Source: Methanomicrobiales archaeon (GTDB taxonomy: Archaea; Halobacteriota; Methanomicrobia; Methanomicrobiales; Methanospirillaceae). Taken from it: DNA of 50,261 bases. The notes below the pieces were generated by a model. The model made no database searches, had not been told where the DNA came from, and saw nothing but the letters and a program-made list of their open reading frames with translations. A program made the position numbers and the translations under genes. The DNA lies in NCBI GenBank assembly GCA_026394715.1, contig JAPKXR010000177.1, positions 1 through 50,261 on the forward strand. Reading direction: 5' to 3'. Of the stretch, positions 31,033-37,113 are shown piece by piece; positions within the stretch are counted from its first letter, which is position 1; every line of letters starts with the position of its first letter.

Positions 31033-32247
31033 ATGCTTCTCGGCATTGACGATACTGATTCACCTTCCGGCATGTGTACCACCTATCTTGGGGCATTGCT
31101 GGCCAGGAAACTGAATAAAATGCATTTGCCGGTACTGGAAGCTAGGCTTCTCCGCCTGAACCCGAACGTGATCTATAAAACCAGGGGAAATGCTGCAATT
31201 TGCCTGGAAGTAAATGGGGATATTGACCGCGTGTTTGAGACGGCCTGCGAAATGGTTACCGGACTTGCCCATTTTTCGCACGAAAACACAAATCCCGGGG
31301 TAGTTGCCATGGAAAACCGTCCCAGGCCGGATTTTTACTGGAAAGCTGTCAGGGACTTCTGTACTACGGAAGAAGCTATTGTCGTCCTTGAAACTGCCGG
31401 AGCCCATTATAAAGGTTTTAAAAATGGCAGGGGGCTTATCGGTGCTACGGCAGCAGTCTGCAGCCAGGTCCCAGACATGACATTCGAGTACCTGACATAC
31501 CGGAATAGCAATGTATTCGGTACACCGAGATTTGTCGATCGAAAAAGCCTGTTTGAGGCCGAGGCGTCGACCTACCCCCATACATGGGACACGGTTGATT
31601 ACGAAAATAATTGCGTAGTCTGTGTCCCGCATACTCCTGACCCGGTCCTCTTCGGAATCCGTGGAGAGAGCCCTTCGTATGTTACATTGGCAAGAATGCA
31701 GGTGGATTCTGAGCCAACCGGAGCTGAACAGATCTTTGCCACAAACCAGGGCACCGATGCGCACCTCGTTGATGGTAAGATCGGCGCCCTCGCGGAGGGC
31801 TTTTCCTACCGTATTACCGGTATGGTATGCACCCATGCACAGACAGGGATAGGGGGGCATGTGTCGATAGGGCTCGGGGACGGAGATACGGTTACCCGTT
31901 GCATGGCATATGAACCAACAAAAGGGTTCCGGAACGTCCTTCGTGCGTTATGGCCGGGTGACCGGGTGCTTGTCACCGGGAGCTACAAAGGAGGGAGTAT
32001 AAACCTGGAAAAAGTCTGCGTTATTACACTTTCGCAAGCCGGGACAACGCGGCCTCCCGTATGTCCTTCCTGTGGCGCCCGAATGACTAGTGCAGGTACT
32101 CTGAAAGGATACAAATGCAGGAAATGCGGGGCCCATGAAACAGAACCACAGGTTACGTTCCACGACCGGACGATTACACCCGGGTGGTACGAAGTCCCGC
32201 CGGTCGCACGCAGGCACCTGGCAAAACCCCTCTGCCGGGGCCCGTAA
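31033..32247 (+). CDS. tiaS: tRNA(Ile2) 2-agmatinylcytidine synthetase TiaS
   Basis: The 404-residue enzyme attaches agmatine to C34 of the CAU-anticodon tRNA-Ile so that it reads AUA, an archaea-only step. The family start MLLGIDDTDSPSGMCTTYL (residues 1-19) is the phosphate/ATP-binding region. RLNPNVIYKTRGNAAIC (about 37-53), a TRK-like kinase domain, an OB fold (about 270-330), and a C-terminal zinc ribbon (CPSC...CRKCG, about 337-363) follow. All domains are present and length is normal. It is divergent from the HTH gene and followed by dys and pyrF on the same strand. Confidence 0.96.
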   Translation: MLLGIDDTDSPSGMCTTYLGALLARKLNKMHLPVLEARLLRLNPNVIYKTRGNAAICLEVNGDIDRVFETACEMVTGLAHFSHENTNPGVVAMENRPRPDFYWKAVRDFCTTEEAIVVLETAGAHYKGFKNGRGLIGATAAVCSQVPDMTFEYLTYRNSNVFGTPRFVDRKSLFEAEASTYPHTWDTVDYENNCVVCVPHTPDPVLFGIRGESPSYVTLARMQVDSEPTGAEQIFATNQGTDAHLVDGKIGALAEGFSYRITGMVCTHAQTGIGGHVSIGLGDGDTVTRCMAYEPTKGFRNVLRALWPGDRVLVTGSYKGGSINLEKVCVITLSQAGTTRPPVCPSCGARMTSAGTLKGYKCRKCGAHETEPQVTFHDRTITPGWYEVPPVARRHLAKPLCRGP

Positions 32248-32317
32248 CCCCGGGGACATGACCATCCGCCGGGAAGGTGTTATCCTTGAACGCGATCAAT
32301 AAATTCATCAATATCTG

Positions 32318-33262
32318 GTGAGCCCATTGAGTCACGAATGCCGTGTACCGGTCAGGCAGGTACGCCTGAAAGCAGGAATGACCGTAGGAGAACTCGCTGA
32401 ACAGATGGGGCAGGCAGGGGCTTATAATGGCGGTGCACTGTTCCGTGCCATCTGTATCTACGAGAAGATGCTCCGTGACCCCGATGTAACAAAATTTTTC
32501 GGTCTTGCCGGGGCCATGGTGCCTGCAGGTATGGGCGGGATTGTCAGGGACCTAATGGATGCGGGACATATCGACGTCCTCGTCTCAACCGGCGCTAACC
32601 TCACCCATGACATTATCGAGGCGATCGGATGCCGCCATTATCACGGCGATGCGGGAAGTTCGGATGTTGAACTGAGACACGAGGAGATAAACCGGATCTA
32701 CGATGTTTACCTGCCGAATGACGCGTTTATCAAATTTGAAGAGTTCATGCAGGGGACCTATTCGGAGATCCCTGACGGAACAACGGTCTCAATAAACGAG
32801 CTGCTCACCCATATCGGGTCGCGTCTCAACTCAGGGATCCTTGCGACTGCAGCAGAACGGCAGGTCCCGGTGTTCTGCCCGGCAATCCAGGACTCTATGA
32901 TTGGGCTCCAGTACTGGTTATTTTCCCAGGCAGGGCATGTTACCGTGGACGCTTTTAAGGATATGCCGATGTTACTCGACCGCTGTTTCATGGCAAAAAA
33001 AGCTGGGGCGATGCTGGTCGGGGGAGGCGTGCCGAAAAATTATATCCTGCAGAGCATGCTGATGACCGAGAACGGTTTCTCCTACGCAGTCCAGCTGACC
33101 GGGGACCGGCCGGACCTTGGCGGCCTTTCTGGGGCCACGCTTGATGAGGCCCGTTCCTGGGGCAAGATCACCGAGGAGGCGTCTGCGGTAACGGTATATG
33201 GTGATGCAACAGTCCTCCTCCCCTTCATGGTCGCCGCGGTGCTTGAGAGGCTGGAACCATGA
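32318..33262 (+). CDS. dys: Deoxyhypusine synthase
   Basis: The 314-residue NAD-dependent enzyme transfers the aminobutyl group of spermidine to a lysine of aIF5A, the first step of hypusine formation. Family signs are FFGLAGAMVPAGMGGIV (about residues 60-77), LVSTGANLTHDIIEA (about 86-100), and the late GGGVPKNYILQ and SWGKI, where the Lys is the catalytic residue. The chosen GTG at 32318 is followed by MSPLSHECRVPV; a start at the internal Met of KAGMTVGELAEQ would be too short. The stop overlaps pyrF by 4 nt. aIF5A is outside the window. Confidence 0.95.
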   Translation: MSPLSHECRVPVRQVRLKAGMTVGELAEQMGQAGAYNGGALFRAICIYEKMLRDPDVTKFFGLAGAMVPAGMGGIVRDLMDAGHIDVLVSTGANLTHDIIEAIGCRHYHGDAGSSDVELRHEEINRIYDVYLPNDAFIKFEEFMQGTYSEIPDGTTVSINELLTHIGSRLNSGILATAAERQVPVFCPAIQDSMIGLQYWLFSQAGHVTVDAFKDMPMLLDRCFMAKKAGAMLVGGGVPKNYILQSMLMTENGFSYAVQLTGDRPDLGGLSGATLDEARSWGKITEEASAVTVYGDATVLLPFMVAAVLERLEP

Positions 33263-33894
33263 CAGCATTGATACTCGCACTCGATGTGACGGATAAAACC
33301 AAGGCTATTGCAATTGCTACCCGATGCGCACCGCATATTGATGCAGTAAAGGTCGGGTACCCCCTTGTCCTTTCAGCAGGGCTTTTGGTTGCCGAAGAAC
33401 TTGCCGATCTCGACCTTCCCCTTATCGCAGATTTTAAAGTAGCGGACATCCCGAATACGAGCAGGCTCATCGCAGAAGAGGTATTCACGTCAGGTTATGA
33501 TACATTAATCTGCCAGGGATTTACCGGTCGTGACTCGGTCACCGCATGCGTTGAGGTGGCAAGGGAGTACGGTGGCGACTGCTTCGTGGTCACCGAGATG
33601 AGCCATCCCGGGGCCACGGAATTCTTTCATGGTGGCATCGCAGAGAGGATTGCCGTGCTCGCGAAAGAGTGTGACGCAGATGGCATTATTGCACCGGCAA
33701 CAAGACCTGATCGCGTTGCTTCCTTAAAACTGCTTATCGGGGACCTGAAAATTTATTCCCCAGGAGTAGGTGCGCAGGGAGGGGATATTTCAGCAATCGC
33801 GAGTATTGTGGATGGGATTATTATCGGACGTGCGATCTATGACGCGGAGGATCCGGGAGAGGTCGCATTGCAGTTTGCAGGTATCCGCCAATGA
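33259..33894 (+). CDS. pyrF: Orotidine 5'-phosphate decarboxylase
   Basis: The 211-residue TIM-barrel enzyme makes UMP from OMP, the last step of pyrimidine synthesis. Diagnostic are LILALDVTDKTKA (4-16), the catalytic DFKVADIPNT (about 53-62, with the Asp-Lys-Asp network), VVTEMSHPGA, and the phosphate-binding YSPGVGAQGGD and GRAIYDAEDP at the end. It is translationally coupled to dys (ATGA). Length is usual for archaea. Confidence 0.96.
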   Translation: MTALILALDVTDKTKAIAIATRCAPHIDAVKVGYPLVLSAGLLVAEELADLDLPLIADFKVADIPNTSRLIAEEVFTSGYDTLICQGFTGRDSVTACVEVAREYGGDCFVVTEMSHPGATEFFHGGIAERIAVLAKECDADGIIAPATRPDRVASLKLLIGDLKIYSPGVGAQGGDISAIASIVDGIIIGRAIYDAEDPGEVALQFAGIRQ

Positions 33895-33968
33895 TGAGAA
33901 AGGAAGACTGATAAAAAAGATGAACCCTATGAGTCAACTGAGGCGGAAACTCTCAATTGGAACGGTCT

Positions 33969-33979
33969 AAAAGTTTAAG
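33969..33979 (+). promoter_or_regulatory. TATA-like box before the glycyl-radical domain gene
   Basis: AAAAGTTTAAG lies 24-34 nt before the ATG at 34003, which would put transcription start at the ATG (leaderless). It shows the small gene can be expressed separately from pyrF. Assigned by spacing only. Confidence 0.35.
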
Positions 33980-34002
33980 AGGATGGCATTCTATCTGATA
34001 GT

Positions 34003-34365
34003 ATGGAATGGACCGCAGAACAGAGAGAGACCGCAGAGAAATACCAGCACCTTGGAGATATTCCAGAAGCCGAACGGCAGTACAAGTGTCATACCTGCCA
34101 CCTTATTGTCGATGAGACCCCGTGCCCTAAATGTGGAGAGGGACACCTCGAAATCATGTGCCCTCTTGACCACTGCCACTGCTCCCACGAGATCCTTTCG
34201 GGGATCGATTACTGCCCACTCTGTCACGCCGCCGTCTGTCCCGAATGCGGGTCGCATGATGTCGTCCAGATTAGCCGGGTCACCGGGTATCTTCAGGACG
34301 TATCCGGGTGGAATGCGGGTAAACAGCAGGAATTAAAGGACCGGGTCCGTTATACCGTAGCGTAA
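34003..34365 (+). CDS. Stand-alone NrdD-type zinc and glycyl-radical domain
   Basis: This 120-residue protein looks like the C-terminal end of class III (anaerobic) ribonucleotide reductase NrdD without the 500-residue catalytic barrel. C71, C74, C79 and C82 (CPLC...CPEC) match the NrdD zinc site. The following [20 protein letters not shown] matches the glycyl-radical loop, with G95 as the likely radical glycine (NrdD: RVCGYLG...NAGKQEE). An extra N-terminal zinc-ribbon-like part has C29, C32, C41, C44 and C53, C58, C60. It is complete, with its own start and stop, and no nrdD or nrdG lies in the window. It could be a radical-domain spare part as GrcA/YfiD is for pyruvate formate-lyase, a subunit of a split reductase, or just a zinc protein derived from NrdD. 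Confidence 0.75.
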
Positions 34366-34384
34366 TCAGATCCCCCGGATTTTC

Positions 34385-35092
34385 ATGAAATATTATATCA
34401 GGAACGATACTCTTTTTGTCAGGGGTACATTTTCTGCCGCGAGTACCGGGCCCTGCGGTGGCCTCCGTCCCGTTTCAACGGTATTACTGTACAGCACGGA
34501 AAAACCACGTACCACCCATGGTGACCCCTGCAGGGATGTAACCCTTCAGGTCGCACGTGAAGGTCTTCCGAACGATTTTTTCGGCATCCATGAAGGAAAT
34601 GGCATCAGCCGTCTTTGTATTGTCCAGTATGACTTCATCACAGTCTTTATCCTGGCTGCCACCAGCAGTGACACCCAGGCAGACCAGGTCACGATTGTCG
34701 TATATTCAGGTGAAGGGCTGGCGGAGAATGCGCTCCTGCAGATGATCATTACCGTTTCCAGTGCAAAAGCCCGGGCCCTGACAGACGCAGGGTTGCCGGC
34801 CCCGGCTGCTTCGGACGACCATGTCATTGTGGCATCTGAAACAGAAGCACACCACAAGGACGCAGGACGTCATTCAGAGGCAGGGTGGCGTGTGTCCGAG
34901 TGCATCCTATTTGGTCTTCCCCACGCACTGGAACAAAAGGACCGTCGGAAAGACCCGGCCCTGTACGTTTATTCACGGTTAGGGGGCGGCCATTTCGTCC
35001 TGTGGCGTCCCAGGGAATGTCCCTACTACCCCTGTCATTTTCAAGGCCAACGGTGTGATTACTGTTATTGCCCGTTTTACCCCCTCGGATGA
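34385..35092 (+). CDS. cbiZ: CbiZ adenosylcobinamide amidohydrolase fused to a Cys-rich small domain
   Basis: Residues 1-185 match CbiZ, which removes the aminopropanol side chain from adenosylcobinamide to give adenosylcobyric acid, letting archaea salvage cobamides. Visible pieces are GGLRPVSTVLLY (about residues 24-35), VAREGLPNDFFGIHEG, TIVVYSGEGLAENALLQMI, SSAKARALTDAG, and DDHVIVASE. Residues about 205-235 form a Cys-rich small domain (PF04071-type; CPYYPCH...CDYCYCPFYPLG) with two CxxxC/CxxC groups, probably a metal site. It follows the glycyl-radical gene by only 19 nt and may be cotranscribed. The fusion has parallels in other methanogens as I recall. Other cobamide genes are not near. 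Confidence 0.82.
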   Translation: MKYYIRNDTLFVRGTFSAASTGPCGGLRPVSTVLLYSTEKPRTTHGDPCRDVTLQVAREGLPNDFFGIHEGNGISRLCIVQYDFITVFILAATSSDTQADQVTIVVYSGEGLAENALLQMIITVSSAKARALTDAGLPAPAASDDHVIVASETEAHHKDAGRHSEAGWRVSECILFGLPHALEQKDRRKDPALYVYSRLGGGHFVLWRPRECPYYPCHFQGQRCDYCYCPFYPLG

Positions 35093-35162
35093 TTCGGGTT
35101 TGGCTTTTAGAAGATCATAAATGGTGCTGTCTGCGGTTACTGTCATGGGGTACTATTCACTA

Positions 35163-35189
35163 TACCGGTACTTAAACCTGTACCCGGTA
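35163..35189. repeat. Near-perfect inverted repeat before the RPA operon
   Basis: TACCGGTAC (35163-35171) and GTACCCGGTA (35180-35189) form inverted arms with one bulged base around an AT-rich centre TTAAACCT. It lies in the 200-nt gap after cbiZ and 105 nt before the RPA gene. It could be an operator or the stem of a terminator, although no T-run follows. Confidence 0.3.
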
Positions 35190-35293
35190 GCTTTTCGGTA
35201 ACCCTCATGCAGGTGGTAAAGGTCACTTTCACCCTGCGCATCCGACCACCATTAATATGCCGTGCTGGGTGAACATGTAGCTGGAGATGTAAA

Positions 35294-36523
35294 ATGGATA
35301 TTTCCCAGATTGTTGAAAGAATCTCCTTAAAAATTGAGGCTAAAGGACACGCGGCAGATAAACCGAAGATTGAACAGAAACTGCGCCGCCTTATTGAGGA
35401 GTTCGGGGTCCAGCCGGAAGATGCCGAGCGGACCGTATGGTACGATATTGCACGTGATTATGGCATCCAACTCGGGAGAGCCGCGGGCCCTGGTGATCAA
35501 AAACAGATCAACTCGGTCAGCACCGAAGAATGGGTCACTATTGAGGGGAAAGTTGTAGTACTTGGCAATTCACCTTCACCATCAATCGCCTATTCCGGGA
35601 TCATTGCTGACGCTTCTGGCGCAATCCGGTTTGTGGTCTGGTCGAAGGCGTCAGTCCCGGTGATCAAAAAAGACTCGTGGTACCGCTTTGAGTCTGCGGT
35701 GGTTGATGAGTTCAAAGGGGCGCTCAGCCTGAAAGTCCACTCAGGGACTACCGTCACAGAACTTGAAGTTGACGGAGTATTAATCCCGGTAATAACACCC
35801 GTTGCCGAGCTGGCAGCAGGTGTTGCCAGTGTCCATGTGAAGATGATACAGGAATGGGACGTCTCGCATGAGCGGATGCTCCAATCAGGGCTTCTCGGGG
35901 ATGAGACAGGTACCGTGAAATTTGTTATCTGGAAAGAAGAGGGGATAGAACGCCTGACACCTGGCAGTGTATATACCATCTACTACACCCTGGTGGACGA
36001 ATTCAACGGGCGTCACTCGCTGAACATTAATACGGCGAATATTGTCGCTGAAGATGGTGATATTGCCGTTGCTTTCGGAACCGCCACGTTCAAGGGGGCA
36101 CTTGTCCATATTGCCCCGGGTTCAGGGCTGATAAAGCGGTGCACGGTCGAGGGGTGTAACCGGGTGCTCTCCCGCCAGAATTACTGCCCGGTCCATGAGA
36201 TGCAGCCGAAATTTAACTACGACCTGAGGGTCAAGGGCTGGCTCGATGACGGGGAACGCACTGAAGATGTGCTGATGCAACGTGAGGTCGTGGAATCGCT
36301 CACGGGTATGACCCTGGATGAGTCGAAGGAACTTGCTGAGAACAACCCGCTCGGAATGGATGAGGTGTTTTTACGCATGAGAGAGAGGATTCTCGGCCGC
36401 TACCTGCGGTGCGAGGGGCGAGAGATCGACCGGTGGCTGCTTGTCAACTCCTGTGAACGAATTCATTTCGAGCCTACGCTGCTTGCTGAACTCTTGAATC
36501 GCACGGGAGGGGAGGTCTCATGA
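35294..36523 (+). CDS. rpa: Replication protein A, single-stranded-DNA binding
   Basis: The 409-residue protein coats single-stranded DNA. Two OB folds are plain: residues about 75-165 (WVTIEGKVVVLGN... and AIRFVVWSKA) and about 170-265 (VHVKMIQEWDV... and TVKFVIWKEE). A third OB with an inserted zinc finger (CTVEGCNRVLSRQNYCPVH, about 283-301) follows. The N-terminal 50 residues are helical. It fits the single-chain methanogen RPA with two to four OB folds and a zinc finger. It overlaps the RPA-associated gene by 4 nt. Confidence 0.92.
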   Translation: MDISQIVERISLKIEAKGHAADKPKIEQKLRRLIEEFGVQPEDAERTVWYDIARDYGIQLGRAAGPGDQKQINSVSTEEWVTIEGKVVVLGNSPSPSIAYSGIIADASGAIRFVVWSKASVPVIKKDSWYRFESAVVDEFKGALSLKVHSGTTVTELEVDGVLIPVITPVAELAAGVASVHVKMIQEWDVSHERMLQSGLLGDETGTVKFVIWKEEGIERLTPGSVYTIYYTLVDEFNGRHSLNINTANIVAEDGDIAVAFGTATFKGALVHIAPGSGLIKRCTVEGCNRVLSRQNYCPVHEMQPKFNYDLRVKGWLDDGERTEDVLMQREVVESLTGMTLDESKELAENNPLGMDEVFLRMRERILGRYLRCEGREIDRWLLVNSCERIHFEPTLLAELLNRTGGEVS

Positions 36524-37113
36524 GCACCCCTGCCACCGGGGGATTCCCAAAACGGGAGAACATGTTCGAGCGTGAACCGGCCAGGAGAGTGTTTGCAGGG
36601 GAATTCCGCGAGATCAGGGTACAGTTCCGTGATGGGACGGATGAGAAAAGTCCTTCCTATGCGCTCCTGCCCACCGGGCAACGGTGCAACCGGGTATTCC
36701 TTGTCGGGTCAATGACCGAAAAGAAGCGACAGGGTGAACAGAACATGTATTATCAGGCTCGGATTGCTGATCCAACCGGTACCTTCTTTGTGTCTGCCGG
36801 AAGTTACCAGCCCGAGGCGATGCAACAGATGGCCCGGATAGAACCGCCTGCATTCGTGGCAGTCGTCGGAAAACCATCGATATATGAGACCCCGGACGGC
36901 ATGGTCATGGTCTCGATCAGGGCGGAGTCCATTACAATTGTCGACCGCGAGGTCAGGGACTGCTGGGTTCTCGAGACGGCAAAGGCCACATTAGACCGAC
37001 TGGACACCCCGGCATCAGGCCCGGATTCCGCGCTTGCCGCCGAAAAATACCATATCGACACGGTCACATACCGAAAAATGGTCTATCATGCGCTAACACA
37101 ATTAAAATTCTAA
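36520..37113 (+). CDS. RPA-associated protein (COG3390 family)
   Basis: A 197-residue OB-fold protein starting four bases before the end of the rpa gene. It carries EPARRVFAGEFREI near residues 18-31, CNRVFLVGSMTEKKR (about 56-70) and ARIADPTGTFFVSAGSYQPEAM (in part), the pattern of the euryarchaeal RPA-associated proteins. In Haloferax these are needed for full RPA function and are always coupled to their rpa gene, as here. It probably forms a complex with the upstream RPA. Confidence 0.9.
   Translation: MSTPATGGFPKRENMFEREPARRVFAGEFREIRVQFRDGTDEKSPSYALLPTGQRCNRVFLVGSMTEKKRQGEQNMYYQARIADPTGTFFVSAGSYQPEAMQQMARIEPPAFVAVVGKPSIYETPDGMVMVSIRAESITIVDREVRDCWVLETAKATLDRLDTPASGPDSALAAEKYHIDTVTYRKMVYHALTQLKF

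Follow-up and report, generated by a model that had tools for sequence, protein, structure and literature searches.

A free-standing glycyl-radical protein, the probable radical-carrying subunit of a two-piece class III ribonucleotide reductase in methanogens

Introduction

What does the glycyl-radical domain (GRD) of an anaerobic ribonucleotide reductase do when it is encoded by a gene of its own? This question is raised by an open reading frame at 34003-34365 (+ strand) of the window, the 50,261-nucleotide stretch of DNA from a Methanomicrobiales archaeon that was analysed here. Class III ribonucleotide reductase (RNR) is described as one chain that holds both the radical glycine and the catalytic barrel. 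For the lone domain, a sequence-only reading of the window had left three options, namely a subunit of a split reductase, a spare radical domain for NrdD, and an NrdD-derived metal sensor. By examining the source genome, its relatives and viral contigs, we found strong support for the first of these, while the second does not hold in this genome and the third is unlikely.

Results

The small gene encodes an NrdD-type radical domain

The open reading frame translates to 120 amino acids. Residues 55-117 match positions 508-562 of the NRDD profile PF13597 above the family cut-off (E = 5.8e-15), residues 69-117 match TIGR02487 (E = 2.6e-15), and residues 74-117 align to the NrdD chain of Prevotella copri (8p23; 4.3e-8), where G95 pairs with the glycine in that enzyme's RITGYL loop. 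PF01228, the glycine radical domain of the pyruvate formate-lyase (PFL) type, is absent from the Pfam matches of the protein. The match to NrdD is not a chance one, because the genomes of the order listed each have one copy of the protein, at 66-93% identity. Thus, the initial description of a complete 120-residue gene with a C-terminus like that of class III NrdD (CxxC pairs, RVTGYL with G95, NAGKQQE) and a second Cys-rich ribbon was accurate throughout. Given its profile match and its single-copy, stand-alone occurrence across the order, we propose that this gene for a stand-alone glycyl-radical/zinc protein provides the small subunit of a class III RNR that is divided between two chains.

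Conservation was investigated by comparing host and viral copies of the protein. The first zinc ribbon (C29/C32 and C41/C44; 34087-34134, +) has all four cysteines invariant in hosts and viruses, and we infer that it binds metal. The second Cys-rich region (C53, C58, C60, C71, C74, C79 and C82; 34159-34248, +) contains the knuckle of the NrdD GRD zinc site, and C79/C82 line up with the second knuckle of fused GRDs; every cysteine here except the variable C58 is invariant in hosts and viruses, which brings the invariant cysteines of the protein to 10. The radical loop S91-R92-V93-T94-G95-Y96 (34273-34290, +; G95 codon at 34285-34287, +), whose G95 aligns to the NrdD radical glycine, lies within an SRVTGYL stretch that is invariant in 26 host sequences, and S91-Y96 is unchanged in eight viral copies as well. 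Moreover, the C-terminal tail from W103 (34309-34350, +) is typical of an NrdD end, with W103, K107, E110, D113 and R114 invariant in hosts and viruses. The sequence-only reading had singled out the loss of G95 from most family members as the pattern that would leave only a zinc-protein role; G95 and the Cys pairs were instead found to be invariant. Modelled alone, the small protein reached a pLDDT of 66, lowest in the radical loop and tail, and a PDB search with this low-confidence model gave no significant match.

Gene neighborhood and promoter

The gene lies in the arrangement TiaS, deoxyhypusine synthase, pyrF, GRD gene, cbiZ, replication factor A and an associated gene (31033-37113), an order that is kept in most of 80 loci. 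Its upstream neighbor is pyrF, encoding orotidine 5'-phosphate decarboxylase (33259-33894, +; NF010386 above cut-off), which adjoins the GRD gene at 78 of the 80 loci. Downstream, and adjoining as had been noticed earlier, is a gene for a cbiZ-like adenosylcobinamide amidohydrolase with a zf-like domain (34385-35092, +; PF01955, 2.2e-10; PF04071, 2.7e-10), present at 75 of 80 loci. The TATA-like box that had been assigned to the gene, CTAAAAGTTTAA (33967-33978, +; extended form CTAAAAGTTTAAGA, 33967-33980), is AT-rich, lies between about -35 and -23 relative to the start codon and is conserved, as judged from the consensus only, in most of 28 aligned loci, which suggests that the GRD gene has its own promoter and would produce a nearly leaderless message. 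A sigma-70 promoter scan found nothing, and the sigma-70 model does not cover archaeal promoters.

Elsewhere in the source genome, a PFL-like glycyl radical enzyme (PF02901, PF01228) is encoded next to a radical-SAM activase gene (contig C58; L065:712-3114, -). Such an enzyme is unexpected in this methanogen, and the contig is possibly foreign to the bin.

The only other NrdD of the genome ends where the radical domain should begin

The source genome (G000) is a draft of 402 contigs that is 98% complete. The search for NrdD and NrdG that the sequence-only reading had called for was carried out on this genome, and it returned a truncated NrdD and an NrdG2 but no full-length NrdD. Specifically, PF13597 has two matches only in the whole genome, the gene at 34003-34365 and G000:C117:15253-16971. 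The latter belongs to a 727-aa open reading frame on contig C117 (L001:1117-3297) that matches PF13597 positions 1-511 and ends with ...STQIGYFAFTRDLTVSLRQFHEYDRKERKITEWVTTDAHVTV, where the GRD should begin; the gene stops mid-contig, away from the contig end, and neither zinc knuckles nor a radical loop were found in the 727-aa protein. The large and small proteins therefore span complementary parts of the profile (1-511 versus 508-562). The large protein scores above the NrdD equivalog cut-off and contains the catalytic barrel with its active-site cysteines, of which C184 and C414 are invariant. Its model (pLDDT 76, with residues 699-727 at low confidence) finds solved NrdD structures as best matches (E = 2.9e-26). 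An NrdG2 (TIGR02495) above cut-off is encoded on contig C327, while TIGR02491, the classical NrdG, gives weak matches only; the activase is NrdG2. Barrel and GRD are not in one polypeptide, being encoded by separate genes on different contigs here and by distant genes in single-contig genomes.

These findings bear directly on the possibility that the small protein is a spare part, that is, a replacement GRD for oxygen-cleaved NrdD in the way that GrcA/YfiD serves PFL. A stand-alone GRD and the PFL precedent (PMC8683613) speak for it, as do relatives in families f8 and f24 that pair a stand-alone GRD with an intact fused NrdD. However, neither this genome nor the order offers an NrdD with a GRD in cis to be repaired, the sole exception seen being an extra NrdD in G001, and the truncated form is encoded by the large gene itself. 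We consider this explanation very unlikely for the present locus, and the sequence-only suggestion of a spare domain fails here for want of a full-length NrdD to repair.

The pair is kept and lost together across the order

The order sampled, apparently Methanomicrobiales, was represented by 199 genomes, and the relatives with GTDB contigs include Methanoregula, Methanolinea, Methanoculleus and Methanofollis. A PF13597 match was found in 174 of the 199 genomes, usually as one large match ending at position 510-516 together with one small match. All 31 large proteins that were read end at most about 35 residues from the motif GYFAFTRD(L/I)TV, and the small protein is a stand-alone frame in nearly all NrdD-bearing genomes of the order. 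Genomes missing one half are few and mostly incomplete assemblies; in G086, for example, the contig breaks inside pyrF. In cellular genomes the two genes are unlinked, and they lie apart in the single-contig genomes that were compared (0.18 versus 1.53 Mb in G011, 2.82 versus 3.08 Mb in G154); in G069 they are 19 kb apart.

Several genomes depart from the usual content. G001 has, beside the split pair, an extra and different full-length NrdD with its own GRD (L207, G001:C1:590703-592373), and G034 has two large split NrdD copies about 16 kb apart (C1:285076 and 300796) with one small gene. Many large NrdD genes, among them those of G052, G063, G096 and G108, have frames of 1200-1740 aa with interruptions that recur near profile positions 53 and 260, which is most simply explained by inteins.

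The dependence of these organisms on the split pair was assessed with the class I/II reductase profile PF02867. No match was found in the source genome, nor in both same-genus genomes and 17 more of those listed, including the single-contig G113 and G154; for the draft source genome, the absence of other RNRs rests partly on such single-contig relatives. All 20 of the at least 20 genomes without PF02867 (the source genome included) have the large protein, the small protein and NrdG2, with the large protein partial in G164. Because RNR is needed for making DNA de novo and PF02867 is missing, the split enzyme should be the sole RNR, and hence the only source of dNTPs, in the source genome and at least 19 others. 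Among those listed, the genomes without NrdD (20) all belong to genus g27, some of them in a single contig; NrdG2 is missing from them too, the small protein has at most weak matches (E above 1e-5), and class II is retained. Four g27 genomes have retained deoxyhypusine synthase next to pyrF, and neither the GRD gene nor cbiZ was found within the 1.5 kb read at that locus. Overall, the joint retention and loss of three unlinked genes constitutes strong functional evidence, with g27 counting as a single loss.

Viral contigs carry the small gene with and without its partner

The small protein is also encoded by IMG/VR contigs. In G440 (127.7 kb; L228:2264-5070), the small gene and then the large gene lie on one strand less than 300 bp apart, accompanied by NrdG2, and in G446 (135 kb; L231:2343-5013) the small gene again precedes the large one on the same strand. 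Both large genes stop before the GRD (PF13597 1-513). This adjacency in two virus contigs provides independent support for joint action of the two proteins.

Six further viral records (7.6-64 kb) have the small gene without the large one, although these records may be fragments; a stand-alone radical domain with no large NrdD in the record was seen in L213, an IMG/VR contig of 7633 bp, and in L215-L219. Viruses with the small gene alone would supply only the radical subunit. Genes for terminase, portal, baseplate, Cas4-exonuclease and helicase lie nearby in several of the viral contigs with the small gene, and ordinary fused NrdD occurs on other viral contigs.

The distribution in hosts and viruses also bears on whether the small protein descends from NrdD but serves as a zinc protein in some other function, for instance in sensing metal or redox state or in binding DNA close to the replication genes. 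Its 10 invariant cysteines in two ribbons and the conserved neighborhood with pyrF and replication factor A would fit such a role, but the radical loop and the tail Trp, Lys and Arg, for which a zinc role has no need, are equally invariant, the protein is lost along with the large protein and the NrdG2 activase, and its gene adjoins the large gene in two viruses. This explanation, and with it the sensor option of the sequence-only reading, is highly improbable. An assembly or frameshift artefact, in which the end of a normal NrdD gene was moved or broken, might be expected of a draft in 402 contigs but has a practically negligible chance of being correct, as the large gene ends mid-contig and the same split recurs in about 170 genomes with conserved neighbors; independent single-contig genomes such as G011, G017, G113 and G154 refute it.

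Fused relatives and the origin of the split

For comparison with NrdDs outside the order, 295 genomes of the one phylum sampled were surveyed. The NrdDs listed from outside the order run to position 560-562 in one chain, and the exceptions to the fused pattern are intein-bearing, incomplete or fragmentary matches. In a tree of the catalytic core, the split NrdDs group as a single clade (SH-aLRT 100) nested among the fused ones, and the GRD of the small protein is closest to the GRDs of these neighbors (30 of 39 identical to f18, 29 of 39 to f16). The break falls inside the zinc site, and at the position of the first-knuckle cysteine the large protein has S in 22 of 31 sequences, C in six and A in three. 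Inspection, by eye alone, of the tail of the large protein and the N-terminus of the small one led us to reject a split-intein origin.

Stand-alone GRDs were also found in 11 of the 112 genomes of family f8, nine of those 11 in genus g63, and in two genomes of f24. The f8 versions are 116-118 aa long, and the f8 and f24 genomes that were checked also have an intact fused NrdD (L232-L237, L238, L239), so that, on their gene content, these proteins may be spare parts for NrdD. A compact CPxC-x4-CPxC knuckle pair is common to the f8/f24 stand-alone GRDs and the small protein, and it is missing from the fused GRDs shown. A tree built on 43 homologous columns unites all stand-alone GRDs with moderate support (73/86). 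An earlier GRD tree, in which they grouped at 100, was set aside since its upstream columns are non-homologous between fused and stand-alone proteins.

Because the stand-alone GRDs share the knuckle pair and group together, the sequences suggest that the trans GRD came first, serving as a spare part or an alternative, and that the cis domain was later lost in one order. The split may also have come about by simple fission or through viral transfer. More broadly, we tentatively suggest, at slightly less than even odds, that the free-standing NrdD GRDs of methanogens and viruses are one family of exchangeable "radical cartridges," which would have begun as spare parts, become obligate after cis loss in one order, and been carried by viruses, with or without the catalytic chain, as a means of recharging host dNTP synthesis or of seizing control of it.

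Discussion

Our analysis points to an obligate two-subunit class III reductase with the radical glycine on a separate zinc protein, a reading to which we assign a probability of about 0.9, because the sole other NrdD of the genome is without a GRD, the small protein corresponds to the missing domain, and both are kept or lost together with NrdG2. In the proposed mechanism, the small protein would dock on the large protein, probably aided by the zinc ribbons, and docking would place the loop around G95 inside the barrel. NrdG2 with S-adenosylmethionine would then abstract a hydrogen atom from G95, and the resulting glycyl radical would generate a thiyl radical at C414, the active-site cysteine in the large chain, after which ribonucleotide reduction would proceed as in ordinary NrdD. 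A detachable GRD is plausible because P. copri NrdD has a mobile GRD, which is ordered in the active monomer but so flexible in the dATP-inhibited form that it is no longer visible (PMC11226230). A possible, and speculative, benefit is that, after cleavage by oxygen, only a new small subunit would have to be made and the 80-kDa chain could be kept.

The components match those of class III NrdD with NrdG as known from P. copri, T4 and T. maritima (8p23, 1h7a, 4coi), namely a barrel with active-site cysteines, a C-terminal zinc GRD with the radical glycine, and a radical-SAM activase encoded in the genome. In contrast to those enzymes, barrel and GRD are here on two unlinked genes, and the GRD protein is distinguished by an additional zinc ribbon and by the shorter CPxC-x4-CPxC knuckle spacing. 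YfiD and Y06I of phage T4 are the only validated spare GRDs, both serving PFL, and the authors of that work speculate that other enzymes may have spare GRDs (PMC8683613). GrcA/YfiD and Y06I resemble the present protein in being small and separate GRD proteins, and GrcA/YfiD works in trans; however, GrcA/YfiD is of the PFL type, not PF13597, and the enzyme it repairs has its own GRD, whereas the large enzyme here has none. A parallel in architecture, a catalytic chain with a small C-terminal chain, is the split class II RNR NrdJa/NrdJb of Pseudomonas aeruginosa, in which both chains are needed (PMC4520616). Yet NrdJab is an adenosylcobalamin enzyme encoded in a single operon, a class that the PF02867-less source genome lacks, and NrdJb carries out disulfide exchange rather than radical chemistry. 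Finally, the stand-alone GRDs of f8 (genus g63) and f24 (L233, L238) have the same compact double knuckle but differ in their N-terminal half and coexist with intact fused NrdD. A search of the open-access literature found no split or truncated NrdD and no RNR of these methanogens.

If the two-subunit reading is true, one chain would receive the radical and a different chain would use it, and this would be the ordinary way of working rather than just a repair measure, in an enzyme that is split order-wide and would sometimes be the cell's only source of dNTPs. The pair would offer a natural two-piece system for studying how a GRD docks and how the activase gains access to the glycine, and it would also suit the question of whether a radical domain damaged by oxygen can be exchanged for another. 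An evolutionary series is available among the relatives, from fused NrdD, through fused NrdD with a stand-alone GRD, to the obligate stand-alone GRD. For viruses, the copies found suggest that there may be a benefit in carrying just the radical domain.
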